Source: Arthrobacter oryzae
GTDB taxonomy: Bacteria; Actinomycetota; Actinomycetes; Actinomycetales; Micrococcaceae
Reading direction: 5' to 3'
Assembly (NCBI RefSeq): GCF_030812315.1
Contig: NZ_JAUSSM010000001.1
Location: 372,001-436,000 of the forward strand
DNA length: 64,000 nt
Part shown: in pieces, positions 23,136 to 31,524 of the stretch
Position numbering within the stretch: the stretch's first letter is position 1
Layout: each line of letters starts with the position of its first letter
Made by a program: the position numbers and the translations under genes
Notes under the pieces: generated by a model
What the model was told of the DNA's origin: nothing
Databases searched by the model: none
The model's input: the letters and a program-made list of their open reading frames with translations, nothing else

Positions 23136-24364
23136 TCCAGCGCGACGGCAGGGTCTGCCAGGCGGCTGGCCCTGATGGCGGTCCGGCTTGAGATCAGTGC
23201 CTTGATGGCTTTCTGCGTGCGGGGAACATTGACGTTCATGCCTGCGACCACCTTGCCCTCGTGCTGCCAGAATGCGATGAACTCCCTGCTGGCCAACGAG
23301 CCGCGGATGACCGGCTCGGCGCCCGCCGCCAGGGTGGGAAATCCCGAGTACTCCATGCTGACGTCGTACTGGTCGGTGTAGAAATAGGGGATGGTGTCCA
23401 GCGCGGCGTCCTGGCCAAGCATCGACTTTGCTGCGACTTTGCCGCCGTTCAGCGCATTTGACCAGTGCTCGCTGCGGTGGTGCTGGCCGGTAAAGGGGTG
23501 CAGGGGGTTTGCCACGTCCCCGGCCGCAAAGATGTCCGGTCCGCTGGTCTGCAGCGCAGCGTCGGTCAGTATTCCATTGTGCAGGGCCAGGCCGGCCTGT
23601 TCCGCGAGGGCGGTTTCGGGGGCCACGCCCACGGCAATGACTACCACGTCGGCCGGCAGCGCCTCACCCGATCCGGTCACCACTGCGGTGACGCGGCCGG
23701 ACTCGCCCAGCATGCCGGCGGCAGTCGCGCCCAGCCGGAACTGCACCCCGTTGGCTTCATGGAGCGAGCGGAAGAACGATCCCAGTTCGGGTCCGATGGC
23801 GGCTGCCAGCGGAATGTCCTCGAGGCCGAGCAGTGTCACGCGGTTGCCGTAGCTGCTGGCCGCGGCGGCAAGTTCCATCCCGATCCAGCCGGAGCCGATC
23901 ATCACGACGTCCCGTCCGCCCGGCGACAACCGTTCCCGGAGGCGGCGGCTGTCATCCAGCGTCCTGAACGTGGTGACCCCATCCAATGTGCTCCCTGACA
24001 ATGGAATGTGCCGGGGGAGGGCGCCGGTGGCCAGCAGGAGGGCGCCGTAGTCCAGAGAATCGCCGCTGCTGAGCCGTACCGTGTGCGGGCCAGGATCGAT
24101 GCCGGCGACCTGCACGCCCAGGCGGAGGTCGACGTTGTTCTCTTCGTACCAGGACTCGGGCGCAACGGGGACGGCTTCCTCACCGGCTTTGCCGAGCAGG
24201 TACTCCTTGGACAGCGGCGGCCGTAGGTAGGGGTGATGCAGCTCCGCGCCAATGAGGGTAATCCGGCCGGAAAATCCCTCGCCGCGCAGGGTGCGGGCAG
24301 CGGTGGCGCCAGCCAGGCCCGCTCCGGCGATCACGATGCTTTCGATGGTTCGTTCGACAGGCAT
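23114..24364 (-). CDS. FAD/NAD(P)-dependent oxidoreductase, ferredoxin-reductase type
   Basis: The 416-residue protein has two Rossmann motifs, [14 protein letters not shown] (FAD) and [17 protein letters not shown] (NAD(P)H), then the FAD-anchoring [17 protein letters not shown]-terminal Reductase_C domain contains [17 protein letters not shown]. This layout matches rhodocoxin/putidaredoxin/BphA4-type ferredoxin reductases, which feed cytochrome P450s or dioxygenases; no such partner is in the window. The ATG at 24364 has GAGGGG seven bases before; an upstream ATG at 24457 would give an N-terminus lacking family similarity. It overlaps the desulfurase 3' end by 22 bases. Confidence 0.9.
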
Positions 24365-24588
24365 GGTGCCCCTCGATTCCTTGGAAGCCGGCGCATCCGG
24401 CCGGGGCTTTCTAAAAACAGTAATCCTGACCATAGAAGCCGGGGGCTCGGCCGTCAAGGGTCCCGCACACCGGATTACAATCGCCCCTTTACCGAGGCAG
24501 TAGAATAGACGGGCATGCAGTGTGTCCGGCCGTGGCCTGGGACGCCCTGCAGCCCCACAATCAAACCCTTCCCCTAAAGAAAGCCAGC

Positions 24589-25728
24589 ATGCGAGTTCTT
24601 GCAGCCATGAGCGGCGGAGTCGATTCCGCCGTTGCCGCCGCCCGCGCCGTCGAGGCGGGACACGACGTCGTCGGTGTCCACCTGGCGCTCTCCAGGATGC
24701 CCGGGACGCTCCGGACCGGCAGCCGCGGGTGCTGCACCATCGAGGACTCCCGTGATGCCTGGCGCGCCTGCGACGTCTTGGGCATTCCCTACTACGTGTG
24801 GGACTTCTCGGAGCGGTTCAAGGAGGATGTGGTCCAGGACTTCATCGACGAATACGCTGCCGGACGGACGCCGAATCCCTGTATGCGCTGCAACGAACGC
24901 ATCAAATTTGCGGCGCTGTTGGAGAAGGCCATCGCCCTGGGCTTCGACGCCGTCTGCACCGGCCACTATGCCAAGGTCATCACCGACGCCGACGGAAATC
25001 CTGAACTTCACCGCGCGGCCGACTGGGCCAAGGACCAGAGCTATGTGCTCGGTGTCCTCACCCACGAGCAGCTCAAGCACTCCATGTTCCCGCTGGCGGA
25101 CACGCCATCCAAGGCGGAAGTCCGGGCGGAAGCCGAGCGCCGCGGGCTGTCCGTGGCCAACAAGCCGGACAGCCACGACATCTGCTTCATTCCGGACGGA
25201 GACACCGCCGGCTGGCTGGCGGAAAAAATCGACATGACCACGGGCGACATCGTGGACGAGTCCGGGGCGAAGGTGGGCGAGCACCCCGGCGCGAACGCGT
25301 TCACTGTTGGCCAGCGCCGCGGCCTCAAGCTGGGCACCCCCGCAGCCGACGGCAAGCCGCGGTTCGTGCTGGAGATCCGGCCCAAGGAAAACAAAGTGGT
25401 GGTGGGGCCGGAGGCGCTCCTGGCCATCGACGAAATCCGCGGCATCAAAGTTTCCTGGGCCGGCCTGCCGATTGCGGAAATCGCCACCGGCGAAGAGTTC
25501 GACTGCCACGCCCAGGTCCGTGCCCACGGTGACCCCGTCCCTGCTACGGCCCACACGGAGCTGCTGACGGACGACGACGGCGCGGAGCGGACGAACCTTG
25601 TGGTCACGCTCACCACGCCGCTGCGCGGTGTTGCTCCCGGGCAGACCGTGGTGCTTTACCAGGGAAGCCGGGTCCTGGGGCAGGCCACCATCGACGCAGC
25701 GCGTTCGCTGCAGCGCGCGGCCCTCTAG
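24589..25728 (+). CDS. mnmA: tRNA-specific 2-thiouridylase MnmA
   Basis: The 379-residue ATP-dependent enzyme thiolates uridine 34 of Lys, Glu and Gln tRNAs. The PP-loop is seen as [13 protein letters not shown] (residues 5-17). The catalytic cysteines are Cys98 or Cys101 ([14 protein letters not shown]) and Cys199 ([12 protein letters not shown]). [13 protein letters not shown] and the C-terminal beta-barrel are present. The ATG at 24589 begins the normal family sequence; the frame is open for 23 more codons upstream without homology. A weak 6-bp hairpin follows at 25753-25767. It pairs functionally with the upstream cysteine desulfurase. Confidence 0.96.
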
Positions 25729-25875
25729 CAAGGCGGCACTTTCCTGAACCTCCGGCGCGTGGCGCCGTGGTCAATTATGCCCGTGACCGCAATAATTGAG
25801 GCTTGGGGAACCAGACTTGATGCAGACCGCCCCTTCACCAGGTGAGGCTGCACAGTTGAGGAAAGCGGGTCCGCC

Positions 25876-27516
25876 ATGGTCTCTGCAGCGCTCGGAATCG
25901 GGCATGGCCTCGAAATGGTCGCGCTTACTGCGCTCGCTGAGGGCCCCTTTACGCGCAAATCAGGAAAACCGCTCACCACCAGCATCCGGGTTCCCGTGGA
26001 ACGAGTCGTCAACGGCCCGGCCGGTGCACGTCTGGCGCTCCGGGTCAGGGCTCCGGGGGCTGACGGGCCACGGCCTATTTCCCTGTCCGTAGACCGCAAC
26101 GAATGGTGCATCGACGACCAACCCGCACCTTCCGGGCTCGAAGAGCTGCTGGCCGACAGCCGGTTCCTGGCACAGCATGTTTATGCGGTGGCGACGGCCA
26201 CTCTGCAGGCCTTTGAAGTCACCTTGGGACGTCGAATGGGTTGGGCCTCGGGGCACCGGCTGGTCATCAGCGTCTATGACAAAATCCCCTACACATCCAC
26301 GGGCTATGACCGCGAGCGCGGTCTGATCCGTTTTGGGCACAGAACCGACAACCGTTCTCAGCGTTCCGTCCCGCTGGCGCTCTATCACGACCTTGTGGCC
26401 CATGAGGTGACACACGCGGTCCTGGACGGTTACCGGCGGCAGTGGACGGACAACGATGCCTTACTCGACGGCTATGCCCTGCACGAGTGCATAGCGGATG
26501 TCGTGGCCATGCTGAGCGTTTTTTCATCTCCCGAGCGTGTGGAACAACAGTTGTCAGTTGCCGTTCCGGGCGCAGAGGGAAAGCGGGCTGGCGTGCCCGC
26601 CCGAAACATGGAAAAGGAAGTTCTGACGTCAGGGCTGTTCGGGCTGGCTGACGGACTGTTCTCCCGGAGTGCCGCCCGGCGCCCGCTCGATATCGATGTG
26701 CCGTTCGAGTGGCAGCTGGATCCTGAACCTCATCGCCGGGGTGAGATCGCCGTGAAGGGGGTGCTGGACGCCGTTGTCAGGCTTTGGCTGCAGCGGCTGG
26801 AAAGGCCGGGCGGCCGTTCAAGCCGATATCAGGTGGCCGAAGCCGGAGCGCATCTTGGGCATCAGATGCTAGGCATGGTACTGCGGGGGCTCGCCTACAT
26901 GCCGCCGGTGGACCCGAACTGGGAGGACCTGCTGCGCGGCATCCTCGCAGCTGATGCCGTGCTGGTACCGACGGACATGATGGGATACCGGCAAGCCGTG
27001 CGGGACGCCTTCTGGGACATAGACCTTTCCACGGAACCCGATGAACTTCTGGACGGGCTGAAGCATCTTCGCGATCTTCGCTATCCGGTCCGGTTATCTG
27101 CCCTGGCCGCCGATCCCGAGGAGATCAACCGGTTCATGTGGGAGAATCCGCGGTTGATCGAGGCGGCTGGTATCGACCAGAACACGAGCATCGTTGTGAA
27201 CAGGGTGCGCCCCAGTACACGTGTGGGGCCGGATGGTTTCGTGGTGTCCGAAATTGGCGCTTCCTACGTGCAGTCCGTCACGATGTCAAAATCCGAAGCC
27301 AGGAACAAGCTTGGGCTCCGGGTCGAGACCGACTATTACACTGTCCGTGGCGGCGGACTGCTGCGTTTTGATGAGGGCGGACGGCTGTGTTTCGCCGCGC
27401 TCAAGCCGGTCATGGACGCGGAGTGGCAGCAGGAAAAGCTGGAAATCATCAAAAGGGAAGCCGGGATTAAGATGCCGGCGGCAACTTTCCACCCGGAGGA
27501 TGACCGCCGGGAGTGA
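25876..27516 (+). CDS. gluzincin (M4-like) metalloprotease-domain protein
   Basis: The 546-residue protein has an HEVTH zinc motif (residues 176-180, LVAHEVTHAVLDGY). About 24 residues later comes HECIADVVAML, whose Glu204 and Asp208 correspond to the third zinc ligand and the following Asp of thermolysin-type (M4) peptidases. A helical region up to about residue 380 resembles the M4 C-terminal lobe (ILAADAVLVPTDMMGYRQAV). The last 170 residues match nothing I know. There is no signal peptide or membrane helix, so the protein is predicted cytoplasmic, which is unusual for M4 enzymes. The ATG has GAGGAAAG about ten bases before. It is convergent with a metacaspase gene seven bases away. Confidence 0.8.
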   Translation: MVSAALGIGHGLEMVALTALAEGPFTRKSGKPLTTSIRVPVERVVNGPAGARLALRVRAPGADGPRPISLSVDRNEWCIDDQPAPSGLEELLADSRFLAQHVYAVATATLQAFEVTLGRRMGWASGHRLVISVYDKIPYTSTGYDRERGLIRFGHRTDNRSQRSVPLALYHDLVAHEVTHAVLDGYRRQWTDNDALLDGYALHECIADVVAMLSVFSSPERVEQQLSVAVPGAEGKRAGVPARNMEKEVLTSGLFGLADGLFSRSAARRPLDIDVPFEWQLDPEPHRRGEIAVKGVLDAVVRLWLQRLERPGGRSSRYQVAEAGAHLGHQMLGMVLRGLAYMPPVDPNWEDLLRGILAADAVLVPTDMMGYRQAVRDAFWDIDLSTEPDELLDGLKHLRDLRYPVRLSALAADPEEINRFMWENPRLIEAAGIDQNTSIVVNRVRPSTRVGPDGFVVSEIGASYVQSVTMSKSEARNKLGLRVETDYYTVRGGGLLRFDEGGRLCFAALKPVMDAEWQQEKLEIIKREAGIKMPAATFHPEDDRRE

Positions 27517-27523
27517 GCCTCCG

Positions 27524-28351
27524 TCAGCTTCCCCAGGAAGCCTTCCGCGCCGCCGTCGTGCCCTCCAGTTGCGCAACCTGGTCGAACCCGCCAGCCCTGA
27601 GGCCCTTGCTGACGAGCTTCAGGATATCCGCCCGGCCAAGGGTGCCGTCGCCCCTGATGGCCTTGATGAAGTTGTAGGTGAACGCGCCGTTGTAGCGGCC
27701 CTCCAGGAACGCATCGGCTGCCGTCTGGTCAGCGCGGCAGGCCGCCAGGAGGACCGGCTTGACGCCCCTGCCGGCCTTCACCAGGTCCCGAAGCGCCCGG
27801 GTGTCGCTGAACTCGGTCGCCGCTACCCCGCGCGCTGTCGGTGCAGGCAGGAAACGGGGCCGCCGGCCGGGCAGGAGGTCCAGTGACTTCAGGCCCGTGC
27901 CACTGTGGCAGGTGTCCAGCACCACGTCCATCAGTACGCCGTCCGGCAGCCGCGCAAAAAGGGTGAACAGCTCGTCGTCCGAAATGACTGTGGCCGGGTC
28001 CCAGGTGTCGCCGGAGTTGTTGATGTTGTAGCAGGCGAAGGCTTCGTCCAAACGGTCTGCTTCATCGTCGCTGGCGTCCGGTATCTGTGTTCCGTGGCTG
28101 GAGAACGTGAAGACGATGTGCTGGAGCTCGCCCGACGCTGCGCGGTCCAGCAACGAATTCAGCTGCGCCACGACCTGCTCCTTCGTGGCCTGCGCGTCCA
28201 GCAGGATCGAGATGTCGGCCTCGGCGAATCCGTAGTCCGCCTGGAGCAGCCCGGCAAGGTCGCGGGCGTCGTTGACGCAGCCCTGCAGCCAGCTGGATTT
28301 TGGCAGGTGTTCAAATTCGTTGATTCCCACACAGAGGGCAGCTTTGCTCAT
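27524..28351 (-). CDS. metacaspase-like caspase-family cysteine protease
   Basis: The 275-residue protein has the C14/p20 fold: ALCVGINEFEHL, the helix GCVNDARDLAGLL, strand IVFTFSSHGTQ with catalytic His86, and MDVVLDTCHSGTG with catalytic Cys148. The acidic run DDEADRLDEAF between them is the metacaspase feature linked to preference for Arg/Lys in P1 rather than Asp. A short C-terminal region follows (KPVLLAACRADQTAADAFLEG). No pro-domain, transmembrane segment or signal is present, so it is a single-domain cytoplasmic orthocaspase/metacaspase. AAGGAAA precedes the ATG. The tight convergent arrangement with the metalloprotease is the notable context. Confidence 0.93.
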   Translation of the reverse strand: MSKAALCVGINEFEHLPKSSWLQGCVNDARDLAGLLQADYGFAEADISILLDAQATKEQVVAQLNSLLDRAASGELQHIVFTFSSHGTQIPDASDDEADRLDEAFACYNINNSGDTWDPATVISDDELFTLFARLPDGVLMDVVLDTCHSGTGLKSLDLLPGRRPRFLPAPTARGVAATEFSDTRALRDLVKAGRGVKPVLLAACRADQTAADAFLEGRYNGAFTYNFIKAIRGDGTLGRADILKLVSKGLRAGGFDQVAQLEGTTAARKASWGS

Positions 28352-28666
28352 GACGTGTTTCCTTCAGCCAGGTATTGCAAGGATTCCGGTGACGCGGTCA
28401 ACGCAATCCCACTCTATTCCCGGGGCGGAGGCTCTTCAATGGCAGCCGGCAATCGTTCGGCCGGAGGCCGATCCGGCACGAACGCAGAAGAAAACGATAG
28501 TTTTGCCCCAATCAGGTAAATTTTGTGTCTCAACTCACAGGATGAAACGATTCATTGGCCTGCTGTCTGATTGAATCATGTGATCAGGACAACACTCCGC
28601 CCACCGAGTCCAACTCATCCAGTTGCCGGGCGGAAGGTGTGTACTCATCGAACAGAAAGTCCACAG
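28352..28666. promoter_or_regulatory. divergent intergenic region between metacaspase and peptide ABC transporter
   Basis: The 315 bases contain no convincing gene. They must hold promoters for the metacaspase (minus) and the ABC operon (plus). A perfect 11-base palindrome TGATTGAATCA lies at 28568-28578, directly followed by TGTGATCA, in the otherwise AT-richer part upstream of the substrate-binding protein. It could be an operator. Confidence 0.45.
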
Positions 28667-30301
28667 ATGGCTATGAACAAAAAAGCCCTGCACAGCGCCA
28701 TCGCGCTTGCGGGTGTTTCCGCGTTTGCACTGACAGCCTGCACAGGCCCGTCCGGCGGCGGCGGAACTACCACCGGCGGCGCCGGAGGCGGAACCATTAC
28801 CTACGGCACCACGGACAAGGTCGTCACCCTCGACCCCGCGGGCTCCTATGATGCCGGCTCCTTCATGGTGATGAACCAGATCTACCCTTTCCTCCTGAAC
28901 GCCAAGCCCGGCACGGCAGACGCTACGCCTGACATCGCAGAGTCCGCGGAATTCACGAGCCCCACGGAGTACACCGTCAAGCTCAAGTCGGACCTCAAAT
29001 TTGCCAATGGCCACGCCCTCACCTCCTCCGACGTGAAGTTCTCCATTGACCGCGTTGTCAGCATCGCGGATCCGAATGGTCCGGCCTCCCTCCTTGGCAA
29101 CCTTGAATCCGTGGCCGCCAAGGACGACACCACGGTGGTTTTCACCCTCAAGGCCGGCAACGACCAGGTTTTCCCGGGCGTCCTCGCAGCCAACTCCGGA
29201 CCGATTGTCGATGAAGAGGTCTTCCCGGCGGACAAGCTGATGACTGACGACGAGATCGTCAAGGGCAAACCGTTCGCCGGCCCGTACACCATCGAGAGCT
29301 ACAAGAAGAACGAACTGGTCAGCCTCAAGGCCAACCCGGACTACAAGGGCCTCCTCGGCAAGCCCGCGAATGACGGCGCCACCATCAAGTACTACGCCGA
29401 CTCGAACAACCTCAAGTTGGACGTCCAGCAGGGCAACATCGACGTCGCCGGCCGCAGCCTCACCGCAACAGACGCCGCCGACCTTGAGAAGGACGCCAAG
29501 GTCAAGGTCCACAAGGGCCCCGGCGGGGAGCTTCGCTACATCGTGTTCAACTTCGACACCATGCCTTTCGGTGCCAAGGCTGCCGACGCTGATCCCGCGA
29601 AGGCCCTGGCCGTCCGCCAGGCCATGGCCAACGTCGTGGACCGTGACGCCATCGCAACCCAGGTCTACAAGGGCACATACCTGCCGGCGTACTCCGTTGT
29701 GCCCGACGGATTCGTCGGCGCAATCCAGCCGCTGAAGGAAATGTACGGCGACGGCAACGGCAAGCCCAGCCTCGACAAGGCCAAGAAGGCCTTCGCCGAC
29801 GCAGGAGTCACCGCACCGGTGAACATCAAGCTGCAGTACAACCCGGACCACTACGGCAAGTCCTCGGGTGACGAGTACGCCATGATCAAGGAGCAGCTCG
29901 AAAAGTCCGGCCTGTTCAAGGTCGACCTGCAGTCCACCGAGTGGGTCACCTATTCCAAGGACCGCACGGCCGACGCCTACCCGGTGTACCAGCTGGGCTG
30001 GTTCCCCGACTACTCGGACGCGGACAACTACCTGACCCCGTTCTTTGTTCCGGGCAACTTCCTCAAGAACCACTACGAGAACGCATCCGTCACCGAGCTG
30101 ATCAAGGAACAGCTCACCACGGTTGACAAGGCAGAACGCGAAAAGGTTCTCGGCGAGGCCCAGACAGCCGTCGCGAAAGACCTCTCCACGCTGCCGCTGC
30201 TGCAGGGCGCCCAGCTGATGGTCGCCGGAAAGGATGTCAAGGGCGTCGACCAGACCCTCGACGCATCCTTCAAGACCAGGCTTGGCGTAATTTCCAAGTA
30301 G
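28667..30301 (+). CDS. peptide/nickel-type ABC transporter substrate-binding lipoprotein
   Basis: The 544-residue family-5 solute-binding protein (OppA/DppA class) has signal sequence MAMNKKALHSAIALAGVSAF and lipobox LTAC with Cys25. A Gly/Thr-rich tether and the SBP_bac_5 fold follow, with SSDVKFSIDRVVSIADPNGP and AVRQAMANVVDRDAIATQVYKG. It captures peptides or a similar ligand outside the membrane. The ATG at 28667 (or 28673) is chosen as the start of the signal peptide; an in-frame ATG at 28571 lacks one. It is the first gene of a four-gene operon, with a hairpin behind it. Confidence 0.92.
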   Translation: MAMNKKALHSAIALAGVSAFALTACTGPSGGGGTTTGGAGGGTITYGTTDKVVTLDPAGSYDAGSFMVMNQIYPFLLNAKPGTADATPDIAESAEFTSPTEYTVKLKSDLKFANGHALTSSDVKFSIDRVVSIADPNGPASLLGNLESVAAKDDTTVVFTLKAGNDQVFPGVLAANSGPIVDEEVFPADKLMTDDEIVKGKPFAGPYTIESYKKNELVSLKANPDYKGLLGKPANDGATIKYYADSNNLKLDVQQGNIDVAGRSLTATDAADLEKDAKVKVHKGPGGELRYIVFNFDTMPFGAKAADADPAKALAVRQAMANVVDRDAIATQVYKGTYLPAYSVVPDGFVGAIQPLKEMYGDGNGKPSLDKAKKAFADAGVTAPVNIKLQYNPDHYGKSSGDEYAMIKEQLEKSGLFKVDLQSTEWVTYSKDRTADAYPVYQLGWFPDYSDADNYLTPFFVPGNFLKNHYENASVTELIKEQLTTVDKAEREKVLGEAQTAVAKDLSTLPLLQGAQLMVAGKDVKGVDQTLDASFKTRLGVISK

Positions 30302-30336
30302 GTCCAGTTCTCCATCCGGTCCTGACCGGCCGAGGA

Positions 30337-30366
30337 GGCGGGGCGCCTGCACGGCGTCCCGCCTTT
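30337..30366 (+). terminator. intercistronic hairpin between substrate-binding protein and permease genes
   Basis: An 11-bp stem (30337-30347 with 30353-30363, one G:T pair) with a five-base loop is followed by TTTC. It sits 35 bases after the stop. A partial terminator or mRNA-protecting hairpin here would raise binding protein over permease, a common arrangement in ABC operons. Confidence 0.6.
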
Positions 30367-30432
30367 CGTGCTGAAGCAGGGCAACAGATTCCGGGGCTCA
30401 CGAGGCCGCCGGAAGCACACATTTAGGTACCA

Positions 30433-31524
30433 ATGACAACATTGATTGAGGCGCCGCCAACCGACGCCGACGGCCTGCTGCCGTCAAAGAAGAAGTCGTC
30501 CGGCGGGGGACTGGGCCAATACATCCTGATCAGGTTCCTGCTGATCTTCCCTACAATTTTCATCCTGGTGACGCTGGTGTTCTTCCTGATGCGCATCACC
30601 GGCGACCCCATCACGGCGGCCATGGGCGGCAGGCTGCCTCCTGAGCAGCTCGCGGAGCGGATTGCCGCGGCAGGGTATGACCGGCCAATCCTCGTGCAGT
30701 ACTTCGAGTACCTCGGACATCTCCTTACCGGAAATTTCGGCACCACCCTTTCGGACAACCGCCAGGTCACGGAAATGCTGACCACGTACGGGTCGGCCAC
30801 CCTGGAACTGACCATCAACGCGTTGCTGGTCGCCCTGCTGGTAGGCATTCCGCTGGGCATGATCGCCGCGTACCGGAGGGACCACGCGCCCGACGCCGTG
30901 CTGCGCGTCTTCGCCATCGTCTGCTACGGAACGCCGGTGTTCTTCGCCGGCATGCTCCTGAAGCTCACGTTTGCCGTCTGGCTCGGGTGGCTGCCCGTGG
31001 CAGGCCGCGCAAAGACATCCAGCGAGCTGGAGCTTACCTCCCTGCAGTCGCCAACAGGCATCTACTGGCTGGACGCCATCCGCAGCGGCAACATGGCGGC
31101 ACTGGGCGACGTCATGGCACACGCGGTCCTGCCGGCCGTTGCCCTTGGACTGCTGACCGCAGGCATCTTCCTCCGCCTGGTCCGCACCAACGTGATCGGA
31201 ACCCTGGGGAGGGACTACGTCGAGGCCGGCCGCTCCCGAGGCGTCAGCGAATTCCGGCTGGTGACAAAGCACGCCTACAAACCTGCCCTGATCCCCATCA
31301 TCACGGTGATGGGCCTGCAGATTGCAGTGATGCTCGGTGGGGCCGTGCTGACGGAAACCACCTTCGAATGGAAGGGGCTGGGATTCCAGCTGGCGACGTA
31401 TCTCACGGCACGAGACTTCGTCGCAGTCCAAGGCATCGTGGTCCTTCTTGCCGTGATTGTGGCCGTGACCAACTTCATCGTGGACATTGTCGCCGCGCTG
31501 ATCGACCCCCGCGTGAGGTACTGA
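30433..31524 (+). CDS. peptide ABC transporter permease, DppB/OppB type
   Basis: The 363-residue protein has a first helix LIRFLLIFPTIFILVTLVFFLM and the DppB N-terminal loop (GDPITAAMGGRLPPEQLAERI, GYDRPILVQYFEYLGHLLTG). Five further helices follow, with the EAA loop DYVEAGRSRGVSEFRLVTKHA that contacts the ATPase. The N-terminal 28 residues are a charged cytosolic extension. One base separates its stop from the next permease. Confidence 0.93.
   Translation: MTTLIEAPPTDADGLLPSKKKSSGGGLGQYILIRFLLIFPTIFILVTLVFFLMRITGDPITAAMGGRLPPEQLAERIAAAGYDRPILVQYFEYLGHLLTGNFGTTLSDNRQVTEMLTTYGSATLELTINALLVALLVGIPLGMIAAYRRDHAPDAVLRVFAIVCYGTPVFFAGMLLKLTFAVWLGWLPVAGRAKTSSELELTSLQSPTGIYWLDAIRSGNMAALGDVMAHAVLPAVALGLLTAGIFLRLVRTNVIGTLGRDYVEAGRSRGVSEFRLVTKHAYKPALIPIITVMGLQIAVMLGGAVLTETTFEWKGLGFQLATYLTARDFVAVQGIVVLLAVIVAVTNFIVDIVAALIDPRVRY

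Follow-up and report, generated by a model that had tools for sequence, protein, structure and literature searches.

A 64,000-nucleotide stretch of the Arthrobacter oryzae genome (contig NZ_JAUSSM010000001.1, positions 372,001 to 436,000; hereafter the window) carries a gene for a gluzincin metalloprotease (MP) and a gene for a C14 metacaspase (MC) placed tail to tail. Comparison with related genomes indicates that the two genes are almost certainly coupled genetically, and the sequences and neighbourhoods of their relatives suggest that the pair is probably the caspase variant of a demolition module centred on MP and used in regulated killing or defence. Both open reading frames (ORFs) lie where a sequence-only reading of this DNA had placed them, with 7 bp between them and catalytic residues intact, and its view of the two products as proteases that appear to be intracellular is supported.

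Among 197 genomes of the family, strong matches (expectation value, E, below 1e-80) to MP and to MC were found in the same 16 genomes, and were adjacent in 16/16. This threshold dropped as weak five of 21 genomes with an MP match (E 1.2e-20 to 9.5e-4) and one of 17 with an MC match (E 1.2e-12). Among 111 genomes of the genus, counted at an E limit of 1e-30, the same 17 held both genes and the other 94 held neither; the genes are adjacent in 16 of the 17 and lie approximately 400 kb apart in the last (G610). Naive odds of identical MP and MC genome sets are of the order of 1e-20, a figure that is far too small because the genomes are related, and the structural variety of the loci is the better argument for coupling. 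In a sample of the phylum, MP matches (E up to 1e-6) were present in 4/396 genomes, including that of the window.

The genes flanking the pair, a tRNA thiouridylase-type gene that we take to be mnmA and a family-5 solute-binding protein gene that is presumably oppA, are 2944 bp apart in the window. Among genus genomes lacking the pair, 20 were compared: the same flanks are 178–380 bp apart in 18, 709 bp apart in one, and 1860 bp apart with a transposase-type gene between them in the remaining one; one of the 20 (G621) has a 19-bit MP match elsewhere that was left uncounted. Given the closed-up flanks in 18/20, MP and MC come and go at this site as one unit in the genomes sampled.

Scanning of contigs with the MP alignment found 94 relatives, of which 79 distinct loci were kept: 49 close, with at least 46% identity, and 30 distant, with approximately 25–35% identity. 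The close loci belong to Arthrobacter, Paenarthrobacter, Paeniglutamicibacter, Sinomonas, Cryobacterium and one further member of the Micrococcaceae; Sinomonas and Paenarthrobacter are themselves Micrococcaceae, and Cryobacterium is a member of the Microbacteriaceae. A local caspase is present at 47/49 close loci and a neighbour of the metallo-beta-lactamase (MBL) fold at 0/49. MC is standalone and convergent with MP at 26 loci, two of them with the genes at distances of approximately 0.8 and 2.0 kb; at 14 three-gene loci MP is accompanied by both a convergent MC and a divergent hydrolase-caspase fusion; and at seven a hydrolase-MC fusion lies directly upstream of MP on the same strand, this co-directional layout being found only with the fusion. 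The two close loci that have no local caspase come from genomes with an MC elsewhere. Retention of the neighbourhood outside close relatives had been named beforehand as a test, and it is retained in two Micrococcales families and in several arrangements. Chance juxtaposition is ruled out by the identical genome sets, the empty sites and the caspases at the close loci. The two-protease module proposed by the sequence-only reading thus has strong genetic support, although it is not a closed one, with a hydrolase-like domain fused to the caspase at 21/49 close loci. At the Arthrobacter three-gene loci L055, L056 and L075–L077, a gene for a conserved 368–369-aa protein adjoins MC, and at L055 this protein matches the RelA/SpoT domain.

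Tree distances of MP and MC are correlated (r 0.81 over 48 loci, with 0/1000 permutations as high), as expected for genes that travel together, although shared descent alone would also do. It is very improbable that the two genes are functionally unrelated and merely have a common insertion site. MP is always found at one site, next to an mnmA-like gene, in the compared genomes of the genus, as hitchhiking would have it; however, the pair occurs in three arrangements and several genomic contexts, a hydrolase-caspase adjoins MP in a cyanobacterium, and MC is retained far off in three genomes (L099, L100 and L199) whose MP sits at the usual site with no local MC. These far-off MC loci (L198, L200 and L201) form their own branch, and two neighbouring gene clusters are common to all three; at L198 these match amidase and peptidyl-arginine deiminase.

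MP was modelled with AlphaFold2 (predicted local distance difference test score 85.5, predicted template modelling score 0.90) from an input alignment of 45 sequences. The model matched the mature M36 fungalysin with a Z score of 27.2 over 312 residues (root mean square deviation 3.7) and the M4 enzyme thermolysin with a Z score of approximately 21, the match extending from residues 11–15 to approximately residue 387 of the model. Residues H176, E177, H180, E204 and D208 are identical in 45/45 aligned homologues and H286 in 44/45, and comparison with thermolysin would make E204 the third ligand of the zinc. Together the HExxH motif, the downstream Glu and the modelled fold place MP, at the level of the clan, among gluzincins of the thermolysin/fungalysin type. 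Membership of the M4 family is not supported by score, the Pfam Peptidase_M4 match of 14.2 bits being under the 22.4-bit cut-off, and phmmer comparison with the PDB gave marginal thermolysin matches (best E 0.3). The C-terminal beta-rich domain that follows the thermolysin/fungalysin match (Table 1) is predicted with high confidence. As the fold match begins at residues 11–15 there is no room for a propeptide, so that MP is predicted to be without one, unlike the M4 family, and no signal-like N-terminus was seen when 15 aligned homologues were judged by eye. Although simple gene calling offered a start at 26236, the ATG at 25876 is favoured by the strain and homologue alignments, being kept in 6/6 strains with homologous proteins beginning nearby. 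Both genes are under purifying selection, with ratios of nonsynonymous to synonymous substitution (dN/dS) of 0.044–0.070 for MP and 0.066–0.084 for MC against five close strains.

MC scored 70.8 bits against Pfam Peptidase_C14 (PF00656, cut-off 21.4), and 10 of its 11 solved-structure matches (phmmer against the PDB) are named metacaspases, the other being the uncharacterized GSU0716. On its domain score, His-Cys dyad and acidic residues, MC is firmly assigned to peptidase family C14. Residues H86, C148, D92, E97 and D102 are identical in 62/62 aligned caspase domains and D96 in 61/62. The acids D92, D96, E97 and D102, which we take to line the P1 pocket, fit the acidic P1-binding loop that had been noted from the sequence. 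Metacaspases of known function cleave after Arg or Lys, and the cluster Arg163-Arg164-x-Arg166 that follows the catalytic Cys (R163 in 61/62, R164 in 60/62 and R166 in 62/62) is a possible autoprocessing site, although it could equally be structural. The score of MC against NCBIfam NF047832 (EACC1-associated caspase) was 29.6 bits, below the cut-off of 140, and its sole match in PADLOC-DB 2.0.0 was a model named caspase (57.6 bits). Assignment of the pair to an EACC1 or PADLOC system is not supported, given scores under cut-off or the lack of an MP match.

Table 1. Positions in the window of the protease pair, its conserved sites and its flanking genes
Feature	Positions	Strand	Size or basis
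MP gene (gluzincin, thermolysin/fungalysin fold as modelled, predicted to be without propeptide)	25876-27516	+	546 aa, stop included
MC gene (C14 metacaspase)	27524-28351	-	275 aa, stop included
Gap separating the convergent MP and MC stop codons	27517-27523		7 bp
HEVTH putative zinc-binding motif of MP, residues 176-180	26401-26415	+	alignment conservation
MP E204 to D208	26485-26499	+	both identical in 45/45 homologues
MP C-terminal beta-rich domain (predicted), ~residues 435-530	27178-27465	+	past main thermolysin/fungalysin match
MC catalytic His86 codon	28094-28096	-	62/62 identical
MC catalytic Cys148 codon	27908-27910	-	62/62 identical
MC Arg163-Arg164-x-Arg166 cluster, after catalytic Cys	27854-27865	-	alignment conservation
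Conserved block upstream of MP (six strains)	25787-25818	+	alignment
Left flank of empty site: tRNA thiouridylase-type gene	24607-25728	+	Pfam tRNA_Me_trans domains
Right flank of empty site: family-5 solute-binding protein gene	28673-30301	+	Pfam domains

The N-terminal domain of the fused caspases carries HGG and GHSAG motifs, and the GHSAG together with a late His is invariant in 8/8 sequences. A model of this domain matched esterases and lipases with Z scores of approximately 10–12, and no Pfam match above cut-off was found for it in five fusions; the part of the fusion model that covers the caspase was too poor to use. From its modelled fold, GxSxG motif and later His, the N-terminal part of the fusion looks like a member of the alpha/beta-hydrolase superfamily, and it is called lipase-like rather than a lipase because the level of the match is near that of common arrangements. 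Three genomes of one genus (g7) that have the convergent pair carry a hydrolase-caspase fusion elsewhere in the genome, and at two g7 loci (L207 and L208) a fusion away from MP adjoins a protein with the caspase-like CHAT domain. Caspase-free relatives of the hydrolase domain occur in four family genomes with no MP or MC match (L203, L204, L205 and L209), as proteins of 358–385 aa in three of them and of 727 aa in L209.

Distant MPs are found in Bacteroidota, Pseudomonadota, Myxococcota, other Actinomycetota and further taxa. An MBL-fold neighbour is present at 28/30 of these loci, a patatin at 15/30 and a caspase at 0/30; of the two loci without the MBL gene, one is a real miss (L114) and the other lies at a contig end (L135). 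MP is a member of a multi-phylum family in which a caspase partner and an MBL partner hardly ever occur together. One genome of the window's own genus (G187, locus L210), among those dropped as weak from the family counts, has an MP of the distant type with an MBL neighbour, and therefore both versions occur in one genus. Two loci from another family of the same order (L211 and L212), belonging to two of the MP-matching genomes in the phylum sample, hold a divergent MP with no caspase or MBL gene within 14 kb; tyrosinase, copper-chaperone-family and CutC genes neighbour it at L211, and the same clusters are found at L212.

Of 32 plasmid records that matched MP, 14 were surveyed, hand-picked to span taxa. 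MP has an MBL neighbour in 13/14 of the inspected stretches, and a gene for a patatin, a DUF2235 (Tle1-like) protein or a phospholipase D (PLD) is annotated in 10/14. On a Rhizobium plasmid MP is fused to an S8 subtilase (L217:2901-6611), with a cell-wall hydrolase gene upstream of the fusion and an MBL-type gene downstream. A caspase is present in 2/14 stretches. On the Planctomycetota plasmid it lies upstream of MP beyond a helix-turn-helix gene, with an MBL gene downstream of MP, and on the cyanobacterial plasmid (Kovacikia) an Amidase_2-hydrolase-caspase fusion is directly upstream of MP. The MP reading frame of this cyanobacterial plasmid is split into two ORFs (L213:2427-7657). In a FastTree tree, given here with no support values, the cyanobacterial MP clusters with the MBL-type MPs, and the partnership with a caspase may therefore have arisen more than once. 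Defence annotations, comprising a cyclase of the cyclic oligonucleotide-based antiphage signalling system (CBASS), SAVED, DarT and a restriction endonuclease, are found in 4/14 stretches. Control stretches from the same plasmids contained defence genes in 0/6 cases compared with 3/6 MP stretches, in a small and mostly rhizobial sample where two MP stretches were shorter than their controls and the plasmid gene tables were incomplete.

The partners swapped around MP are an MBL-fold protein, a patatin, a Tle1-like or PLD phospholipase, a subtilase, an amidase and a hydrolase-caspase. Every partner type is degradative, directed at membrane lipid, cell wall or protein, or, in the case of the MBL-fold protein, perhaps at nucleic acid or some other phosphoester, and a demolition module is the simplest reading. 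Taken together, the comparisons incline us towards regarding MP and MC as coupled parts of an intracellular device for regulated demolition, by self-killing or growth arrest. The module would be held off until a trigger, perhaps infection or damage, activated the metacaspase, possibly via autoprocessing at the conserved Arg cluster. Activated caspase and MP would then digest cell proteins and the lipase-like domain, where present, would attack the membrane as well; in the genome of the window, where no hydrolase match was found, the two proteases alone would act as executors. That MP and MC are parallel executors on a shared trigger is plausible at slightly less than even chances, an order with MC upstream of MP appears unlikely, and one with MP upstream of MC quite unlikely. 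The sequence-only reading had proposed proteolytic activation between the two, and this gained no support: neither the flexible loop nor the tail of MP has a conserved Arg or Lys, so that no conserved site for an activating metacaspase cut is seen there, and a direct activating cut of MP by MC is possible but unsupported. More broadly, and tentatively, an unexported MP may be the constant core of a multi-phylum self-demolition system with swapped, polymer-attacking partners, in which the Micrococcales have replaced the MBL protein by an obligate metacaspase and of which the window would hold a minimal, two-protease death switch.

That the pair may serve regulated killing or defence was also raised from the sequence alone. 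Such a role fits the swapped phospholipase, subtilase, amidase and MBL partners, as well as the defence genes in the vicinity of some distant homologues, whereas several observations weigh against it and against a coupled demolition device. The pair in the window is set between housekeeping and transport genes, with no defence island. The defence genes lie at only four of the 14 plasmid MPs, and these four are without exception Rhizobiaceae copies of the distant MBL type. PADLOC-DB 2.0.0 gave no profile match for the window's MP or for three distant MPs, and a scan of viral_contigs found no relative of the pair. The genome of the window has no match to the hydrolase domain, and the low-confidence loop and tail of MP offer no conserved Arg or Lys to a metacaspase. 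The reverse question, of MC occurring where MP does not, was put to the family and genus samples only. Finally, no shared upstream motif of MP and MC was seen by eye in six aligned strains, and together with the convergent layout this leaves no sign of co-expression.

Several of the same facts would suit a non-lethal pathway of intracellular proteolysis, in which MP and MC process or turn over specific proteins in stress, dormancy or development. The chromosomal site and the low dN/dS, as in a normal enzyme, are in keeping with this, as are the flotillin gene present in 14/14 three-gene loci and the BTAD-type regulator in 19/49 close loci. The patchy presence in 17/111 genus genomes, the membrane- and wall-degrading enzyme types among the partners of relatives and the defence genes beside some distant homologues argue the other way, and we regard a non-lethal role as rather unlikely.

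The convergent layout implies that MP and MC do not form one operon, which rules out a simple operon in the window, and that they have separate promoters. The sole sigma-70-like match of the region (25768-25796) overlaps the conserved block upstream of MP and is not above chance, with one promoter-like match found against 0.6 expected and five terminator-like matches against 2.8 expected. No Rfam match to a structured RNA was found in 24000-30500.

Carriage by phage was set aside, since the lone match, of 31%, is in a short, unverified phage record and none was present in viral_contigs. Tle1-like (DUF2235) phospholipases, patatins, PLD enzymes and amidases are also known as delivered effectors, and the resemblance of the MP partners to these types would suit a reading of the proteins as lytic cargo that a contractile system, or a secretion system of another kind, delivers to other cells. 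The genome of the window has a phage-sheath-family match (contig C22, 29936-30421) that exceeds the cut-off at 65.7 bits, possibly representing a contractile injection system or a prophage. However, such a match exceeds the cut-off in just 2/12 MP-bearing genomes (3/12 at E up to 0.001), on which ground contractile-system cargo was set aside, and the catalytic fold of MP is predicted to begin at its N-terminus, with nothing signal-like before it by eye. Exported or injected antagonism is accordingly considered improbable.

Little is known of what metacaspases do in bacteria, and the strict two-way genetic coupling gives a metacaspase a concrete protease partner in the soil bacteria Arthrobacter, Paenarthrobacter and Sinomonas. 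If the pair does kill or protect cells, it would add a metalloprotease arm to the caspase-type conflict systems of bacteria. It would also provide a handle on a widespread module of protease, MBL protein and phospholipase, whose protease is in most cases labelled a hypothetical protein and some plasmid copies of which lie beside CBASS or restriction genes.

The open-access literature yielded no description of an MP-MC module or of such a gluzincin partner, although a prior description elsewhere is possible. With the M4 (thermolysin) and M36 (fungalysin) families MP has the predicted catalytic fold and zinc-site residues in common; it differs in its predicted lack of a propeptide, its extra C-terminal beta domain, its score under the Pfam M4 cut-off and its position next to a caspase or MBL gene in 75/79 loci. 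The nearest precedent for the hydrolase-caspase link, in the parts of Kaur et al. 2020 (PMC7159879) drawn on here, is the VMAP (MoxR-vWA) group of conflict systems, where an alpha/beta-hydrolase gene invariably adjoins that of the caspase peptidase and a role in conflict is predicted; the corresponding parts of a 2021 sequel (PMC8195603) propose caspase-driven activation in related systems. In contrast to VMAP systems as described there, the hydrolase-like domain and the caspase are fused in the relatives of MP and the gluzincin is the constant partner, and a Pfam scan of ten neighbours in the window revealed neither a MoxR-vWA nor a VMAP domain, the neighbours of relatives having been scanned in part. 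The EACC1-caspase systems, in the same parts of PMC7159879, resemble the MP-MC pair in having two genes and a caspase, but there the partner is a single-helix EACC1 protein and here a metalloprotease. Asplund-Samuelsson et al. 2012 (PMC3501461), in the portions considered, report metacaspase-Amidase_2 fusions, proteolysis genes in some metacaspase operons and Lactamase B among the common operon neighbours. Their Amidase_2-caspase fusion resembles the Kovacikia fusion beside MP, whereas those portions describe neither a gluzincin partner nor a hydrolase-caspase fusion, and the main text contains 0 occurrences of 'Arthrobacter'. The description that suits the MP-MC pair best is that of a novel variation on the protease-based conflict or cell-death modules of bacteria.

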